NCBI GenBank assembly: GCA_002772205.1
Contig: PCRZ01000043.1
Coordinates: forward strand, 1 to 10,042
DNA from: Candidatus Jorgensenbacteria bacterium CG23_combo_of_CG06-09_8_20_14_all_54_14
GTDB lineage: Bacteria; Patescibacteriota; Minisyncoccia; UBA6257; GWB1-50-10
DNA: 10,042 nt
Direction of reading: 5' to 3'
The translations under genes were made by a program, and so were the position numbers. The number at the start of each line of letters is the position of its first letter. Position 1 is the first letter of the stretch. This document shows positions 1,589 to 10,042 of the stretch, in pieces. The notes below the pieces were generated by a model. The model did no database searches and was not told the DNA's origin. It worked only from the letters and a program-made list of their open reading frames with translations.

Positions 1589-1690
1589 ATCCCGTTAGAG
1601 ACAACCAAAATCTAGGAATAAACATGTTCAACAAAAAAAGATACCAACATTGCCAAAGGTCAAATCTAACGGGACTGTCTCTAATGGGAT
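1589..1690 (+). repeat. Start-codon-abutting inverted-repeat element A
   Basis: ATCCCGTTAGAGAC (1589-1602) pairs with GTCTCTAATGGGAT (1677-1690) with one G-T wobble. The right arm ends in the AT of the ATG at 1689. A second right arm, TCTAACGGG (1665-1673), is a perfect complement of CCCGTTAGA in the left arm, so the left arm has two possible partners. GGGATGAA occurs on both sides (1582-1589 and 1686-1693). The interior is A-rich and encodes nothing recognisable. Confidence 0.75.
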
Positions 1691-1817
1691 GAAACAGCAC
1701 GCTAAGGTGGGGAACCGCCCCGGGAGACCAACCTACCGCACGCCGGCCGTCTTTCGGTACCAACAGTATCTCAAAACAAAAAGCGCAAAGAGCAAGGCGC
1801 GTTTCCGCCAAAAATAA
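1689..1817 (+). CDS. Small very basic protein, unknown function
   Basis: This 42-residue reading frame starts at the ATG joined to element A and ends one base before the old rsmI start at 1819, an operon-like spacing. It has seven Lys and six Arg and no Asp or Glu. The N-terminal part contains GNRPGRPTYR, loosely like an AT-hook (GRP flanked by basic residues); the C-terminal part is KTKSAKSKARFRQK. Such composition fits a nucleic-acid- or ribosome-binding peptide, but I recognise no family. Support for being a real gene is the TATAAT promoter that would stand six bases from its ATG if element A were absent, and the one-base spacing to rsmI. No ribosome binding site is visible. Confidence 0.5.
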   Translation: MKQHAKVGNRPGRPTYRTPAVFRYQQYLKTKSAKSKARFRQK

Positions 1818-1818
1818 C

Positions 1819-1854
1819 ATGGGAACGCTCTATGTGGTGGGAACCCCCATCGGT
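1819..1854 (+). pseudogene. Truncated extra copy of the rsmI 5' end
   Basis: The twelve codons read MGTLYVVGTPIG, the standard start of RsmI, and lie one base after the stop of the preceding small gene. The frame then runs into a hairpin-rich spacer and stops at 1912-1914 after 31 codons. The real gene restarts at 1945 with MGILYIVATPIG. The two 36-base copies differ at 11 positions, mostly synonymous. This looks like the original rsmI start, displaced by an insertion that supplied a replacement start, or a remnant of recombination with a diverged rsmI. Confidence 0.7.
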
Positions 1855-1935
1855 CCCGATTTTGTTAGCCACGACGGAGTCGCGTCTAACAAAATCGAGG
1901 ATCCTCGATTATAATTTAAGAAATCATAATCGGGA
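1854..1935 (+). repeat. Structured inverted-repeat element B before rsmI
   Basis: The outer arms TCCCGATT (1854-1861) and AATCGGGA (1928-1935) are exact complements. Inside are CGATTTTGTTAG (1857-1868) with CTAACAAAATCG (1886-1897), whose loop holds a further CGAC/GTCG hairpin; an 18-bp perfect palindrome centred on GGATCC (1893-1910); and CGATTAT (1906-1912) with ATAATCG (1926-1932). The arms overlap, so several folds exclude each other. The CCCG...CGGG ends match elements A, C and D. Confidence 0.7.
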
Positions 1936-1944
1936 GAACCCACT

Positions 1945-2616
1945 ATGGGGATTCTTTATATCGTAGCTACCCCAATTGGTAATTTGAAGGACATCACCCT
2001 GCGGGCGCTGGAGGTTTTGAAATCCGCCGACGTCATTTTTGCGGAGGATACGCGGGTGACGAAGAAGCTCCTCGCGCACTATGCTATCCAGAAACCGCTG
2101 GAACGCTATGACGAACATTCCCACGCGCGGGCGTGCGAGAAGGTAAAAGAATTGCTCCGGCAGGGGAAATCGGTAGCGCTGGTCACGGATGCCGGTACCC
2201 CGGGGATCGCGGATCCCGGCACGCGCCTTGTGTCATATGTTAAAAGTCAATTGTTAAATGTTAGCGTAGTCCCCATACCTGGTCCCTCGGCACTTACCGC
2301 CGCGCTCTCGGTTGCGGGCGTCGGTGCGGAACACTTCACCTTCGCCGGCTACCCGCCGCACAAGAAGGGGCGGCAGACGTTTTTCCTAGGACTCCATCAC
2401 GCGACACTCCGGCCCATCGTGCTCTATGAATCGCCGCACCGCCTTGCGCGGACACTTGGAGAACTGGGGCAGGTGTTTGGACTTGATGCGGAAATTGTAG
2501 TGGCGCGGGAGCTAACGAAGATATATGAAGAACTGTTCCGCGGCGACATCAAGACCGCGCTTGTATATTTCACCGGTGAGCGGGGGAGAGGCGAGTTTGT
2601 ACTTATCATCCCGTAG
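1945..2616 (+). CDS. rsmI: 16S rRNA (cytidine-2'-O-)-methyltransferase RsmI
   Basis: RsmI uses S-adenosylmethionine to methylate the 2'-OH of C1402 in 16S rRNA. Family motifs are in order: PIGNLKDITLRALEVL (10-25), AEDTRVTKKLL (33-43), VTDAGTPGIADPG (80-92), VPIPGPSALTAAL (109-121), FAGYPPHKKGR (133-143), LYESPHRL (160-167) and VARELTKIYEELFRG (186-200). At 223 residues it ends after the methyltransferase domain (GEFVLIIP) and lacks the C-terminal extension of the ~285-residue E. coli protein. The start at 1945 has a Shine-Dalgarno-like GGGAG eight bases upstream, the best such site in the window. The first ~14 codons are AT-richer than the following sequence, which fits a replaced 5' end. 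An AT-rich patch at 2238-2263 (residues 99-106) is also out of character, but length is normal there. Confidence 0.95.
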   Translation: MGILYIVATPIGNLKDITLRALEVLKSADVIFAEDTRVTKKLLAHYAIQKPLERYDEHSHARACEKVKELLRQGKSVALVTDAGTPGIADPGTRLVSYVKSQLLNVSVVPIPGPSALTAALSVAGVGAEHFTFAGYPPHKKGRQTFFLGLHHATLRPIVLYESPHRLARTLGELGQVFGLDAEIVVARELTKIYEELFRGDIKTALVYFTGERGRGEFVLIIP

Positions 2617-3511: not shown

Positions 3512-4657
3512 ATGCGTGTCGCCATTCTCCACGACTACCTGAACCAGTTCGGCGGGGCGGAGCGGGTGCTTAAGGTTATCCTGGAGCTCTTTCCCGACGC
3601 GGACCTCTACACGCTTCTCTACGATGAGGGTAAGACCCGCGGACTTTTTCGGGGGCGGGTGACGAAAACAAGCTTCCTGGACATCCCTTTCATCCGCAAC
3701 CATCACCGCGCGTTCATTCCCCTCATGCCCTTTGCGGCGCAAATCCTCCGCTCGCGGGAGAACCCCTATGACCTTGTGGTGTCCTCCACCGCGGGTTATG
3801 GGAAAGGCATCGGCGTCCGCGGCGCCTTCCATGTGAGCTATTGCCACAGCCCGCTCCGCTACGCGTGGGAGATCGATTACCTCAAGAATCTCCCTTTCTC
3901 GCCAGGACCTCTCTCGCGGGGGAGTTTGCGCCCCATTGCGCGCTGGCTTGCCAGGTGGGACTACCGTACGGCGCAGGGCGTGAATCTCTTTATGACAAAC
4001 TCTTACCACATCGCGAAAAAGATAAATTCGTACTACGGCCGCGAATCAGTGGTGGTGCATCCGCCCGTTGATTTAGAAAAATTTTACTACGAACCTCAAA
4101 GCTCCCGCCTTCGCACGGCTACGGACGGGCAGGCAAAGCTCAAAGCTGAAAGCTACTATTTGATGGTGGGGCGGCTCCTCTACTACAAGCGGTTTGACCT
4201 CGGTATCCAGGCGTTCAACCATCTCCGGAAACCGCTCCTCGTGATAGGCGCGGGTCCCGAGATGAAAAAGCTCAAGGCGCTCAACCGCTCGCCCCAGACA
4301 AAGTTCCTCTCGGACGTGAGCGACGGGGACCTGCGGGAGTACTATGCGCACGCGCGGGCACTCCTCTTCCCGCAGATAGAGGACTTCGGCCTCGTGGCGG
4401 CCGAGGCGCAGGCATGCGGGTGTCCCGTCATCGCCTATCGCGAGGGCGGGGCGCCGGAGATCGTGGAGAATAAAAAGACCGGCGTACTTTTCAGCGCGCA
4501 GACGCCGGAGGCGCTCATGGAGGCGATCCGCACTTTTGAAAATCTCTCGTGGAACCGGGCCGCCATCGCGCGCCGCGCCGCGCGTTTCTCAAAAGAAACT
4601 TTCAAGCGGAAGTTCTGTGAGGCGTTGCGGAGCGCGGGTGTGGCGCTCTCGCCATGA
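3512..4657 (+). CDS. GT4-family glycosyltransferase (first of two)
   Basis: This 381-residue cytoplasmic, retaining GT-B enzyme is expected to add a sugar from a nucleotide donor to a lipid-linked glycan. The N-terminal acceptor domain starts MRVAILHDYLNQFGGAERVL, with the glycine-rich GGAE loop typical of GT4. The donor-binding C-terminal domain begins at YYLMVGRLLYYKRFD (215-229) and carries the EX7E motif E290-DFGLVAA-E298 followed by AQACGCPVIAYREGGAPEIV. The upstream in-frame GTG at 3491 lies before the -10 box, so 3512 is the better start. Residues ~194-213 are a repeat-derived insertion between the two domains. The stop TGA overlaps an ATG (ATGA, 4654-4657), which is where element C begins. 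Specificity is unknown. Confidence 0.93.
   Translation: MRVAILHDYLNQFGGAERVLKVILELFPDADLYTLLYDEGKTRGLFRGRVTKTSFLDIPFIRNHHRAFIPLMPFAAQILRSRENPYDLVVSSTAGYGKGIGVRGAFHVSYCHSPLRYAWEIDYLKNLPFSPGPLSRGSLRPIARWLARWDYRTAQGVNLFMTNSYHIAKKINSYYGRESVVVHPPVDLEKFYYEPQSSRLRTATDGQAKLKAESYYLMVGRLLYYKRFDLGIQAFNHLRKPLLVIGAGPEMKKLKALNRSPQTKFLSDVSDGDLREYYAHARALLFPQIEDFGLVAAEAQACGCPVIAYREGGAPEIVENKKTGVLFSAQTPEALMEAIRTFENLSWNRAAIARRAARFSKETFKRKFCEALRSAGVALSP
4095..4147 (+). repeat. Repeat-derived insertion within the first GT4 gene
   Basis: CTCAAAGCT occurs at 4095-4103 and again at 4139-4147, enclosing a GC-rich stretch with CCCG/CGGG complementarity. AAAGCT then continues in a 7-base period to 4154. The encoded residues (about 195-213, SSRLRTATDGQAKLKAES region) lie in the linker between the GT-B domains and look dispensable. 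Confidence 0.5.
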
Positions 4658-4811
4658 TCCCGTTAGAAACCACGCCCGCCCCGTTAGAATTCTCCGCTGC
4701 CGCGTTTCCAACGCGGGAACCAGAAGCAGACAAGAAACATCGGGAAATTCTAACGGGGCCCGCGCTTGGCATACCCAAATGGCCTTTAGGGCTGACCGTC
4801 TCTAACGGGAT
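4657..4811 (+). repeat. Start-codon-abutting nested inverted-repeat element C
   Basis: Outer arms ATCCCGTTAGA (4657-4667) and TCTAACGGGAT (4801-4811) are exact complements, and the right arm ends in the AT of the ATG at 4810. Nested inside are GCCCCGTTAGAATT (4678-4691) with AATTCTAACGGGGC (4746-4759), 14 bp perfect, and inside that CGCGTT (4701-4706) with AACGCG (4710-4715). Inner and outer arms share CCCGTTAGA, so they can exchange partners. ATGA occurs on both sides (4654-4657, 4810-4813). The element happens to stay open in the frame of the next gene. Confidence 0.8.
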
Positions 4812-5961
4812 GACCATCCTCGTTGACCTCCGTCCTCTCGTGAGCGGTGTCGTTTCCGGCGTGGAAACATACACCGTTTCCCTGCTCGCGCATCTCTTGA
4901 AAACGGACACCCGCAATCGCTACCTCTTTTTTCTTAGCCGTTTCCGGAAAAAGCCGCTCCCGCCGGAGTGGGATTTTTTAACGGGGGCAGGCGCGCTCAA
5001 CTGGCATATACCCAATAAGGCGCTTGATGCGTGGTGGGGTGTCGCGAGCTGGCCGCCCGTCGATACGTTTGTTAATGCGGACGTTGTTTTCAGCCCTCAC
5101 CTAAACCTATTGCGCGCCTCGCCGCGGGCAAGACGGGTCATCACCATTCACGACCTCTCATTCGTGCATTACCCGCACTTCTTTCCTTTGCGGAAGCGTT
5201 TTTGGCATTGGACCCAGCATGTGCGCGCGCAGGTGCGGCGCGCCGCGCGCGTGATCGCCGTTTCGGAGTTCACTAAAAAGGATATGATGGCGACCTGGCA
5301 CCTTCCCGAGGAAAAAATTGCCGTGGTTCACTCGGGAATCAATCCGTTCTATCTCCGCTTGCCGGAGAACGACGCAGGGCTCCGCGCGTTCCGTGAGCAA
5401 CACGGTCTCGCACAGCCCTTCGTCCTTTTTGTGGGGACGCTCGAGCCGAGAAAAAACATTCCGGGCATCATCCGCGCGTTCAATGTTTTGAAAGGAGAAG
5501 CGGCCTTTCGCGGCCTCTCGCTTATCCTTGTCGGGCGGCGGGGGTGGCTCTATGATGGCATTGCGCGCGCCATCAGCGGCTCTCCGCACCGGAATGATAT
5601 CCGTTTATGGGGTTCCGCCACGGAGGAAGAACTGCGTTACCTCTATAATCTCGCTGCCGCTTTCACCTATCCTTCCTTTTTTGAAGGATTCGGGTTTCCG
5701 GTCCTTGAGGCGCAGGCGTGCGGCGCGCCCGTGATTGCCTCGAACGTCACCTCGCTGCCGGAAATTTTGGGCGAAAGCGCCATCCTCGTTCCGCCCCGAG
5801 ACACGGACGCCATTGCCCGCGCCGTCGCGAAGGTGGCGGCGAATAGCGAACTCCGCGCGGCGCTCCGTGAAAAAGGTTTTGCGAACGTGAAGCGGTTCTC
5901 GTGGCAGCGCGCGGCGGAGGAAACGCTCGCGGTGTTGGAAGAAACCGGAAACCAACCCTGA
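4810..5961 (+). CDS. GT4-family glycosyltransferase (second of two)
   Basis: This 383-residue GT-B enzyme resembles the mannosyltransferase-like branch of GT4. The N-terminus MTILVDLRPLVSGVVSGVET contains the acceptor-domain glycine loop. Further motifs are VITIHDLSFVHYP (110-122), ARVIAVSEFTKKDM (146-159), VHSGINPFY (173-181), FVLFVGTLEPRKNIPGIIRA (204-223) and the donor-site EX7E, E292-GFGFPVL-E300, followed by AQACGAPVIASNVTSLPEI. I chose ATG 4810 because family similarity starts there; an in-frame ATG at 4654 would add 52 residues encoded by element C, without domain similarity. Without the element this gene would overlap its upstream neighbour by ATGA, as in a tightly coupled operon. No Shine-Dalgarno sequence is present; the start is embedded in the element's right arm. 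It probably acts in the same glycan pathway. Confidence 0.92.
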   Translation: MTILVDLRPLVSGVVSGVETYTVSLLAHLLKTDTRNRYLFFLSRFRKKPLPPEWDFLTGAGALNWHIPNKALDAWWGVASWPPVDTFVNADVVFSPHLNLLRASPRARRVITIHDLSFVHYPHFFPLRKRFWHWTQHVRAQVRRAARVIAVSEFTKKDMMATWHLPEEKIAVVHSGINPFYLRLPENDAGLRAFREQHGLAQPFVLFVGTLEPRKNIPGIIRAFNVLKGEAAFRGLSLILVGRRGWLYDGIARAISGSPHRNDIRLWGSATEEELRYLYNLAAAFTYPSFFEGFGFPVLEAQACGAPVIASNVTSLPEILGESAILVPPRDTDAIARAVAKVAANSELRAALREKGFANVKRFSWQRAAEETLAVLEETGNQP

Positions 5962-8360: not shown

Positions 8361-8483
8361 ATGGAAACCAAACAGTGCCAAAATTGCAAGCAAAACTTTG
8401 TCATCGAGCCGGATCCACAGCACCACCCCGACATAATGGTAGGAGGGTGCTGGACTTCGCTCCATCTGCAACTGCACCCATGA
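8361..8483 (+). pseudogene. Truncated extra copy of the zinc-ribbon gene 5' end
   Basis: The frame begins METKQCQNCKQNFVIEP, matching SETRVCQNCKQNFVIEP in the full gene at 8480. Over the shared part most base differences are synonymous (TGC/TGT, AAT/AAC, AAC/AAT, TTT/TTC, GAG/GAA). After Pro17 the frame reads into a spacer with CAGCACC (8418-8424) complementary to GGTGCTG (8446-8452) and GGGTGC (8445-8450) complementary to GCACCC (8474-8479). It ends at a TGA that overlaps the ATG of the full gene (ATGA, 8480-8483). This could be a paralogue remnant, since the family is often present in several copies, or the displaced original start. Confidence 0.65.
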
Positions 8484-10042
8484 CCCAATCTGAAACCCGC
8501 GTTTGTCAAAACTGCAAGCAAAATTTCGTCATCGAACCGTATGACTTCGCGTTCTACGAGCGTATCAAGGTCCCACCGCCGACGTGGTGTCCAGAATGCC
8601 GGCTTATTAGAAAAATTATTTGGTTAAACTCACTCAACCTTTTTAAGCGAAAATGCGATGCGCCGGTGCACAAAGAGGAAATCATTTCGAAGTATCCGTC
8701 GTATTCAAAAAGAAAAGTTTATGACGAAAAATATTGGTGGTCCGATGCATGGGACCCGTTTTCGTATGGGAAGGAATATGATTTTTCAAAAAGTTTTTTC
8801 TCCCAATTTGGGGAACTTGTGGAAAAAGTTCCGCAGAAAAACCTGGATAACGTGAATTCCATAAATTGCGTTTTTTGCGCATCCGCAGTGGAATGTAAGG
8901 ATTGCTATCTTTGTACAGGATCATATAAGTCAGAAAACTGTCTCTACGGAGACACGGTTGTTATGAGCAAGAATTGCTCCTATTGTTTTGGGTGCGTTAG
9001 TTTGAGGAACAAAAAATACTGCATTTTTAACGAGCAATACACAAAAGAAGAGTATGAAAAGAAGATAAAAGAATTTTACCCAACTAACGGAAAATTACTT
9101 GAAAAAACATTGGAAGCTTTTAATAAACTCCTTCTTAAAACTCCGAGAAAATATGCAGCAATAATCCGCAGCTTGAATTGTACGGGGGACGTCATAGAAA
9201 ATTCAAAGAATTGCACATCTTGTTTTTGGATAACCGGGGGAGCGGAAAATTGTAAATTTATTGTTTGCGGCGGATTCGGATTGAAAGATAGTCAAGATGT
9301 GTATGCTGGCGGAGGGCAATCGGAAATGCTTTACGAAACGGTTAGCAGTGGTATCGGGTGTAAAAATATATTTTTTTCAAGCAGAATACAACAATCAATG
9401 GATGTGAAATATTCAATTGATTGTTATGGATCAAACAATCTCTTTGGGTGCGTAGGTCTACGAAACAAAAGTTATTGCATTTTAAACAAACAATGTTCAA
9501 AAGAAGAGTATGAATTGCTTGTCCCGAAAATTATTGAGCATATGAACCAGAAGCCATACATTGATCAAAGGGGTCGCGTATATTCATATGGAGATTTTTT
9601 CCCGATGGAATTGAGCCATTTTTCTTATAACGGAAGCACGGCGCAGGAACATTTTCCAAAGACAAAAGAAGAGATAGAAAAAGCCGGTTATACATGGAAA
9701 GAAGAGGTTGAAAAAGATTATGCCCCGCAGAAAAAATCTGAAGATGTAACCGTTGATATTTCAGATATCCCGGACACCATAACGGATGAAATTATTGAAT
9801 GCGCGCATAAAGGGGAGTGTAATGACAGGTGCACTAAAGCGTTTCGCATTACGCCGGATGAATTGCAATTCCACAAAAAAATGAACATCGTCCTCCCCAT
9901 CCTTTGTCCGAATTGCCGCCACATTGAATTTATAAGACAAAGGAATCCCTTTAAACTCTGGCACCGCACCTGCGCCTGCGGCGGCAGGAAATCCCAAGCA
10001 CCAAATACCAAATCTCAATACGAGAACACCGCCAAGCACCAG
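8480..10042 (+). CDS. Cys-rich double-zinc-ribbon protein, partial (runs off the right edge)
   Basis: The frame is open for 521 codons with no stop before the window ends. An N-terminal zinc ribbon is formed by CQNC (C9, C12) and CPEC (C37, C40); a C-terminal ribbon has Cys at 441, 447, 451, CPNC (476-479) and CAC (498-500). Between them is a YDEKYWWSDAWDP segment (81-93) and a long stretch of spaced Cys. Two copies of an internal unit are visible: FGCVSLRNKKYCIFNEQYTK (170-189) and FGCVGLRNKSYCILNKQCSK (322-341), each followed by EEYE. I recognise the pattern as a family common in Parcubacteria, often labelled only as hypothetical or misnamed; function is unknown, though the ribbons suggest nucleic-acid or protein binding. 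Base composition falls to AT-rich from about codon 43 and rises again near the end. A simple repeat interrupts the sequence after residue 503. Confidence 0.85.
   Translation, partial: MTQSETRVCQNCKQNFVIEPYDFAFYERIKVPPPTWCPECRLIRKIIWLNSLNLFKRKCDAPVHKEEIISKYPSYSKRKVYDEKYWWSDAWDPFSYGKEYDFSKSFFSQFGELVEKVPQKNLDNVNSINCVFCASAVECKDCYLCTGSYKSENCLYGDTVVMSKNCSYCFGCVSLRNKKYCIFNEQYTKEEYEKKIKEFYPTNGKLLEKTLEAFNKLLLKTPRKYAAIIRSLNCTGDVIENSKNCTSCFWITGGAENCKFIVCGGFGLKDSQDVYAGGGQSEMLYETVSSGIGCKNIFFSSRIQQSMDVKYSIDCYGSNNLFGCVGLRNKSYCILNKQCSKEEYELLVPKIIEHMNQKPYIDQRGRVYSYGDFFPMELSHFSYNGSTAQEHFPKTKEEIEKAGYTWKEEVEKDYAPQKKSEDVTVDISDIPDTITDEIIECAHKGECNDRCTKAFRITPDELQFHKKMNIVLPILCPNCRHIEFIRQRNPFKLWHRTCACGGRKSQAPNTKSQYENTAKHQ
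9989..10018 (+). repeat. Simple CCAAGCACCAAAT-type repeat inside the zinc-ribbon gene
   Basis: The stretch is built of CCAAGCACCA and CCAAAT-like words; CCAAGCACCA recurs at 10032-10041. It encodes SQAPNTKSQ directly after the C-terminal ribbon (CACGG), just before YENTAKH, which resembles the family's usual continuation. It looks like an in-frame low-complexity insertion of a type I have seen scattered in CPR genomes. Confidence 0.5.

Follow-up and report, generated by a model that had tools for sequence, protein, structure and literature searches.

The rsmI gene of an uncultured, ultra-small bacterium, Candidatus Jorgensenbacteria bacterium CG23_combo_of_CG06-09_8_20_14_all_54_14, has two starts, and between them lies an 82-bp double hairpin. 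We analyzed this locus in a stretch of 10,042 bp (PCRZ01000043.1; hereafter the window), which is one entire contig of a 508-kb genome that is 94.6% complete in 47 contigs and in which rsmI is single-copy. With a probability of roughly 0.68, we assign the double hairpin, which is itself non-coding, to a family of site-specific mobile elements of Patescibacteria that spreads by homing and leaves a replacement gene end behind. What carries this reading is a family of related elements, a recurring anatomy of relic and replacement gene ends, a divergence between the two that selection has shaped, relics with the composition of their host, linkage to an endonuclease, and recurrence at the same sites.

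Two rsmI starts flank a double hairpin

The complete rsmI gene (1945..2616, forward strand) encodes a 16S rRNA C1402 2'-O-methyltransferase of 223 residues (Pfam TP_methylase, 5.3e-35) and begins at the second of the two starts. Its 5' end, MGILYIVATPIG (1945..1980, forward strand), is a mostly synonymous respelling, with AT-richer third positions, of 12 codons found upstream, MGTLYVVGTPIG (1819..1854, forward strand). On sequence comparison we take the upstream copy to be the resident 5' end of rsmI, severed by the element, and refer to it as the relic and to the downstream copy as the replacement. An earlier note on this DNA had drawn attention to both starts and to the hairpin between them, and both sequences are indeed present: they agree at 9 of 12 residues, whereas the starts of 709 other open reading frames (ORFs; loci L038-L117), each compared with any 12-mer within its 320 upstream bases, reached at most 6 of 12. 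Chance was rejected as the source of the double start on these grounds. The copies differ at 11 of 36 bases and, as had been stated, mostly at third positions (8 of the 11). The note had also observed that deleting 126 bases (1855-1980) restores an in-frame rsmI. A hairpin element does lie between the starts, but the element proper spans 1854-1935, and T1854 is both its first base and the final base of relic codon 12. Deletion of the 126 bases does restore the reading frame, but this adds no evidence because both copies begin at their ATG.

The first start had been proposed as the probable ancestral one, a proposal that our results bear out. It lies one base past the TAA (1815-1817) of a small ORF of 42 residues (MKQHAKVGNRPG...; 1689..1817, forward strand) for which a Pfam search returned no family and, because a comparable small ORF precedes rsmI in four members of the family (L005, L013, L019 and L030, by eye), it appears to be in the ancestral place. 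The relic also has the composition of the host: GC content at third codon positions (GC3) is 0.67 in the relic, 0.33 in the replacement and 0.66 in the remainder of the gene, so that the second copy is AT-richer than the gene downstream of it, as had been claimed. Reading on from the relic start at 1819 into the element gives a peptide of 31 residues with its stop at 1912-1914. The right end of the element carries a Shine-Dalgarno-like GGGAG (1932..1936, forward strand) 8 bases ahead of the second ATG that possibly supplies the ribosome binding site for this start; in some other copies of the element a new ATG can be read at a similar distance from the same end.

A comparison of rsmI 5' ends in relatives, which the earlier note had suggested, covered 29 loci; a single N-terminal motif was present in 25 of them and two motifs in none, the pattern having missed the gene start in 4. 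A protein 99% identical to the RsmI of the window (P0001, with two residue differences) has the same N-terminus as the second start. The nearest relatives that have a name, with RsmI proteins 78-81% identical to that of the window, are Candidatus Jorgensenbacteria, which makes the source a member of the Patescibacteria; among the 80 loci kept in a search of named genomes for close relatives, the best identity was 56%. A search of viral contigs for rsmI relatives gave 10 stretches, none of which contained a relative.

The double hairpin belongs to a dispersed family

The element (1854..1935) is arranged as TCCCGATT-hairpin 1-ATCGAGGATCCTCGAT-hairpin 2-AATCGGGA, has the ends TCCCGA and TCGGGA, and contains a conserved central palindrome, ATCGAGGATCCTCGAT (1894..1909), that joins the two hairpins. 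Both of these adjacent hairpins are predicted, and folding is stronger than in shuffled sequences (z -5.7 for DNA at 1845-1950; z -5.8 for RNA at 1854-1935). No Rfam family matched the window at gathering thresholds; a ribozyme core was not detected by this search, and identity as a group I or group II intron was rejected.

Beyond what the earlier note described, the hairpin is one of a dispersed family, members of which show the same arrangement in fusA, leuS, tuf, rpmE, rplN, topA, tatD and tRNA genes. The family is also linked to a homing endonuclease. Matches to the element in the window's own genome and family have little beyond AATCGAGGATCC in common. The family consensus from the copies compared is TCCCGATn-(hairpin 1)-nATCGAGGATCCTCGATn-(hairpin 2)-nATCGGGA; the stems and loops vary from copy to copy. 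The element centre is present in 23 of 244 genomes of the order when one mismatch at most is allowed, and, as an exact match, in 32 of 383 genomes of the class (a set that takes in 42 genomes of the order and family); reversed-pattern controls gave 0 matches in either set. In the variable inner stems 4.05 of 6 pairs are complementary, as compared with 3.40 when arms are swapped between copies, a value that is above all 200 swaps (maximum 3.66), although the difference is not large. Copies in folD (L189 and L179), gyrB (L188) and leuS (L151) are in frame and read through as peptide (L179 and L151 by eye), and the in-frame element in folD occupies the same site in two genomes. The rsmI locus is one case of a recurrent type of insertion that, as far as the literature shows, is undescribed in bacteria: no account of such elements in bacteria was found in the open-licence literature, as judged from titles and abstract openings.

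Relic and replacement ends recur at other genes

In genome G004 (L124) the element separates MSREYPIEKVRDIGIIAHID from a complete fusA that starts MPRIYPIKKVRDIGIIAHID. (Gene names at element loci were assigned by reading N- or C-termini.) Other cases at 5' ends involve leuS (L125, G001), rpmE (L159, G240), topA (L167, G135), rplN (L169, G003), tatD (L199, G442) and fusA (L198, G494), and cases at 3' ends involve tuf (L142), rplK (L180) and fusA (L197 and L140). At prfA (L192) a nearly complete gene adjoins the element and a fragment follows it, a variant in which relic and new copy are ambiguous.

Both ends were recognized in 45 of 67 copies of the element, and a junction-anchored repeat test was applied to these 45, the remaining 22 falling outside it. 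For 173 mismatched flank pairs, which served as the null, the 99th percentile is 26 and the maximum is 30. Sixteen copies scored 26 or more, 12 of them above 30, and 27 scored below 22; one of the 16, L200, has no gene assignment. As a base rate, a start-anchored repeat of at least 44 occurred in 0 of 757 ORFs (the window plus L038-L117). Note that the window's own repeat, for which a score of 28 was also obtained, would not reach this threshold of 44.

The earlier note had argued that a simple duplication would give identical copies. The argument is fair, but near-identical repeats do exist, at tpiA (L155) and tRNA-Glu (L162) over 62 bases and in fusA of G034 (62 of 62 bases, with a different insert), and identity varies by case. 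This different insert is found near the same codons of fusA in G003, G043, G013 and G034 (L220, L221, L222 and L231), again with a repeated 5' end; it is GCGTCGC...CGACCCC-like and terminates in an inverted copy of the site. A repeated fusA 5' end is present in 5 of 24 loci with a recognized start (30 fetched), G004 included.

Replacement ends differ mostly at third positions and are AT-shifted

In 13 coding pairs of relic and replacement (176 codons, with the reading frames of all 13 set by hand), first, second and third codon positions differed 32, 12 and 107 times, respectively. The excess at third positions (107 of 151) is significant against an expectation of one third (p 5e-21; 1.9e-19 without the window) and has a z of about 5 even against one half, roughly the expectation for a freely decaying relic. 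(Omitted from this count were tpiA L155, which is nearly identical with an indel; gyrB L188, an in-frame insertion with a score of 22; L162, L200 and L202, which are tRNA loci or have no gene assignment; and L126 and L127, where the repeat is at the protein level and was seen by eye.) Because 107 of the 151 differences are at third positions, relic and replacement copies must have diverged mostly while both still functioned.

Mean GC3 over the 13 pairs is 0.49 in the relic, 0.52 in the remainder of the gene and 0.31 in the new end, and GC3 is higher in the relic than in the new end in 10 pairs, lower in 2 and tied in 1 (Wilcoxon p 0.027). The exceptions are prfA and L163 with respect to GC3, and tpiA, where the copies are nearly identical. 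Since relics are host-like in GC3 and new ends are AT-shifted, composition marks the relic as the gene end that belonged to the host and the end of the complete gene as the incoming one. That the second rsmI copy was imported from another lineage, as the earlier note had suggested, is the best reading because this copy is atypical and, judged along with 12 similar cases, accumulated its differences from the first while the two still functioned.

Insertion sites coincide and extend to tRNA genes

In 13 cases with the relic on the left, the bases to the right of the element match the gene bases that follow the breakpoint at a mean of 5.2 of 8 positions, as compared with 3.5 for mismatched pairs (permutation p 5e-5). 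Taken over these 13 cases together, both halves of the target look to flank the element, and the insertion looks clean, without target duplication. (Note that these are not the 13 pairs of the codon count; tpiA and the fusA 3' end of G082 are in, and L163 and prfA are out.) The flanks of the element coincide at six pairs of loci when 0.15 were expected. One of these pairs is intragenomic and the others are at the 5' end of fusA, the 3' end of fusA, tRNA-Glu, another tRNA arm (by eye) and folD.

Complete tRNAs for Ser (L144), Cys (L170), Ala (L147) and Glu (L202) are found inside the element, with remains of the same tRNA gene on its flanks. The tRNA-Ser arrangement occurs again in L145 (G040), where the cargo is identical to that of G135 at 50 of 51 bases and the relics agree at 21 of 28. 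When the element was removed and the flanks joined, ARAGORN found no tRNA in L144, L202 or L147, and in L170, with one more base dropped, it found a tRNA with the anticodon not determined; the identity of the resident tRNAs therefore rests on alignment. At tRNA-Glu in L162 the homology ends at the tRNA's own 3' end.

GIY-YIG endonuclease ORFs accompany the element

A GIY-YIG profile identified 15 ORFs, of which 14 are distinct, across 74 element loci (209 kb) and 0 in 52 control rsmI loci (313 kb). The element loci count repeats of one place; L148, which is the same as L128, was removed from the count of ORFs and kept in the length. Pfam recognized GIY-YIG in all three ORFs submitted. L158 and L140 carry the ORF in the loop of hairpin 1 and L147 carries it in hairpin 2; at the other loci it is within a few hundred bases. 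At the 3' site of fusA, at the same base, G082 has an element with a truncated, apparently frameshifted GIY-YIG ORF in hairpin 1, and G482, which belongs to a different order, has an element without it.

In the window's own genome, three of the four GIY-YIG ORFs lie between a relic 5' part of a tRNA and a complete tRNA-Phe, tRNA-Gln or tRNA-Arg, the relic alignments scoring 30 to 32 with no null distribution; at tRNA-Gln the last 18 bases of the tRNA are also repeated downstream. The fourth ORF (L176, G000:C39:7405-7596) is in the loop of another hairpin. It is framed by a stem of ~21 bp (ACCCAGCACTTATTTTTATAA), like a third hairpin family that is also found ahead of an mraZ-like gene (L037).

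A proposed homing route to the rsmI anatomy

We infer cutting, mobility, the route of repair, resistance of the replacement and use of the second start from the sequence comparisons described above. In the route that we propose, a GIY-YIG endonuclease carried by other members of the family would cut a conserved site that is free of the element (in rsmI, the TPIGN codons), and repair of the double-strand break would draw on the allele of a relative, where the element already stands beside an intact, differently spelled gene end. The recipient would retain its own severed gene end as the relic (1819-1854) and would gain the element (1854-1935) together with the donor start (1945-1980), which would restore the protein without restoring the cleavage site. 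The order of relic, element, half-site and intact gene in the donor allele is taken as given, and ordinary double-strand-break repair from such an allele would reproduce the whole anatomy seen. The spelling of the replacement may have been selected for escaping cutting or may merely be that of the donor. The identities, which run from 62 of 62 bases (fusA of G034) to third positions that are close to saturation, are consistent with donors that differ in how closely they are related to the recipient.

A number of observations weigh against homing with gene-end replacement. At rsmI itself, the junction-anchored DNA repeat is modest (score 26, p 0.012), the right half-site is unconvincing (2 of 8 bases), and no other genome among the 244 of the order has an element at the rsmI site; the one-mismatch matches in 7 other genomes of the order include none at rsmI by eye. 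The donor that the import of the second copy calls for was not identified among 101 rsmI starts, the best of which, in G034, agrees at 30 of 36 bases (the best for the first copy among the same starts is 28 of 36). The window's 82-bp element holds no endonuclease ORF and, because such ORFs are present in or beside other copies, it can only be a shortened relative of an endonuclease-bearing element. The GIY-YIG profile was itself seeded by six proteins, two of which came from element loci, and tRNA genes are present as well at 8 of the 14 loci that have a GIY-YIG ORF, so shared hot spots may account for some of the linkage. Common descent of the replacement ends at one site seems clear for tRNA-Ser and not for fusA: at the 5' end of fusA new ends agree with each other at 33 of 52 bases and relics at 37 of 52 (15 of the last 16 bases match, however), and at the 3' end the values are 51 of 66 and 48 of 66 (25 and 21 over the first 27). 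Moreover, the new fusA 3' ends of G082 and G482 retain amino acids shared with their own relics, which would imply that the donors were near relatives or that respelling took place in situ.

The near-identical repeats at tpiA (L155), tRNA-Glu (L162) and fusA of G034 would suit an insertion that duplicated a long target and left the first copy, no longer used, to decay. As a general cause such duplication and decay was rejected, since the pattern of 32, 12 and 107 contradicts it; a freely decaying copy predicts at most about half of the differences at third positions, and only 12 of those seen are at second positions. The homology in L162 stops at the tRNA's own 3' end, and the sequences on either side of the element are halves of a single site, not a duplication (in the 13 cases and at tRNA-Ser in L144). 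We regard this alternative as unlikely, and give the same standing to hairpins like those of REPINs or miniature inverted-repeat transposable elements that are moved by a transposase, with the exchange of gene ends as a later, separate recombination with relatives. Paired palindromic hairpins, a bulged base and the lack of a target duplication resemble REPINs, and the 27 of 45 testable copies that score below 22 count in favor of this alternative. Against them stand insertion sites common to different genomes, repeats that adjoin the edge of the element and the linked GIY-YIG ORFs. A REPIN with a Y1 transposase in particular was rejected: PF01797, the one family that the search covered, had 0 matches in the 94.6% complete genome of the window (G000), and the same search was positive in 5 of 14 control genomes.

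The strong hairpins, and the stop of the 31-residue ORF within hairpin 2, 30 bases ahead of the second start, would also be expected of a regulatory leader, in which translation from the first start would yield a leader peptide and the hairpins would act as attenuators of rsmI expression. We consider this very improbable. The same element turns up at other, unrelated genes, as a frame around tRNA genes and as an in-frame insertion in gyrB, leuS and folD, it has no Rfam family, and a conserved leader was rejected on the 25 of 29 relatives' loci with a readable motif, none of which has a second one. A chimera created when two strains were assembled together is the least probable of all. A contig of no more than 10,042 bp, in a genome of 47 contigs, leaves room for it, but the same anatomy is seen in many independent genomes and genes, and the protein with two residue differences has the same second start. 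We continue to favor a homing element that leaves a replacement gene end.

Related systems

Rickettsia palindromic elements are short, palindromic and dispersed, and here too there are in-frame copies inside genes. To our knowledge, gene-end replacement is not known for either these elements or REPINs. REPINs (PMC3116915) are likewise short, palindromic and dispersed; they differ in that the window's genome is without a Y1 transposase (PF01797 search).

The nearest precedent appears to be the gene hybrids formed by mobile ORFs in fungal mitochondria, in atp6 of Allomyces macrogynus and in atp6, atp9, cox2 and nad3 of Glomus (PMC3630166). In the sections of that paper on these hybrids, an endonuclease ORF in a conserved gene brings a foreign C-terminus in frame and the native C-terminus remains downstream; the two atp6 ends have 63.5% of bases and 91% of residues in common. 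The likeness is that of a replacement end in a working gene, a truncated native relic and an element between them. The cases described here differ in being bacterial, in involving 5' as well as 3' ends and tRNA genes too, in having a double hairpin of ~80 bp that is mostly without an ORF, and in the endonuclease, which is LAGLIDADG in Glomus atp6 and GIY-YIG here (PMC3630166). The double-hairpin elements of Allomyces mitochondrial DNA likewise consist of two adjacent hairpins, are thought to be mobile, and lie within genes with no flanking duplication (Paquin 2000, as cited in PMC2800124). This is a likeness by description only; those elements are organellar, and the citing passage mentions neither replacement gene ends nor an endonuclease (PMC2800124). 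In rRNA genes of the candidate phyla radiation (CPR), GIY-YIG ORFs occur in insertions unlike group I or group II introns, together with short insertions (<200 bp) of unknown nature, and the authors place GIY-YIG outside spread by homing (PMC11270868). These insertions share with ours the bacterial radiation and the non-intron GIY-YIG ORFs; they differ in being confined to rRNA genes, and the passages that treat them mention no hairpin family or gene-end replacement (PMC11270868).

Other candidate inserts in the window

The last gene of the window has a second candidate double start (8362-8540), in which METKQCQNCKQNFVIEPD is followed by a hairpin of a different kind and then by MTQSETRVCQNCKQNFVIEPYDF, the repeat being 39 bases long and 85% identical. 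In L126, as seen by eye, the TCCCGA element stands at the start of a member of this gene's family. Inserts at 1586-1690 and 4657-4812 have CCCGTTAGA/TCTAAC(G)GG-like ends and start codons adjoining both sides, with the junctions ATGAA-insert-ATGAAACAG and ATGA-insert-ATGACC; these are apparently a further hairpin family that re-supplies start codons. Stretches that look inserted, being in frame and repeat-like or AT-rich, were seen by eye at 365-600, 2230-2275 and 4090-4155, within pseudouridine synthase, rsmI and glycosyltransferase genes.

Implications

Homing elements are usually thought to be confined to introns, inteins or intergenic sites, since otherwise the target gene would be destroyed. 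The family described here inserts into coding cores and tRNA genes in reduced genomes, and a complete gene remains afterwards. We suggest tentatively, as an idea that falls somewhat short of even odds, that Patescibacteria have a natural cleave-and-rescue system, in which hairpin-framed homing elements would enter the most conserved codons or the anticodon loops of essential genes and would carry a differently spelled replacement of the part that they destroy. The cargo would be a gene end, or a whole tRNA in the loop of a hairpin, and neither splicing nor a dispensable site would be needed. If true, this would account for puzzling double starts and split tRNA genes, would offer gene ends a way to move from one lineage to another, would make false start codons a hazard for annotation, and would represent a natural counterpart of cleave-and-rescue designs.
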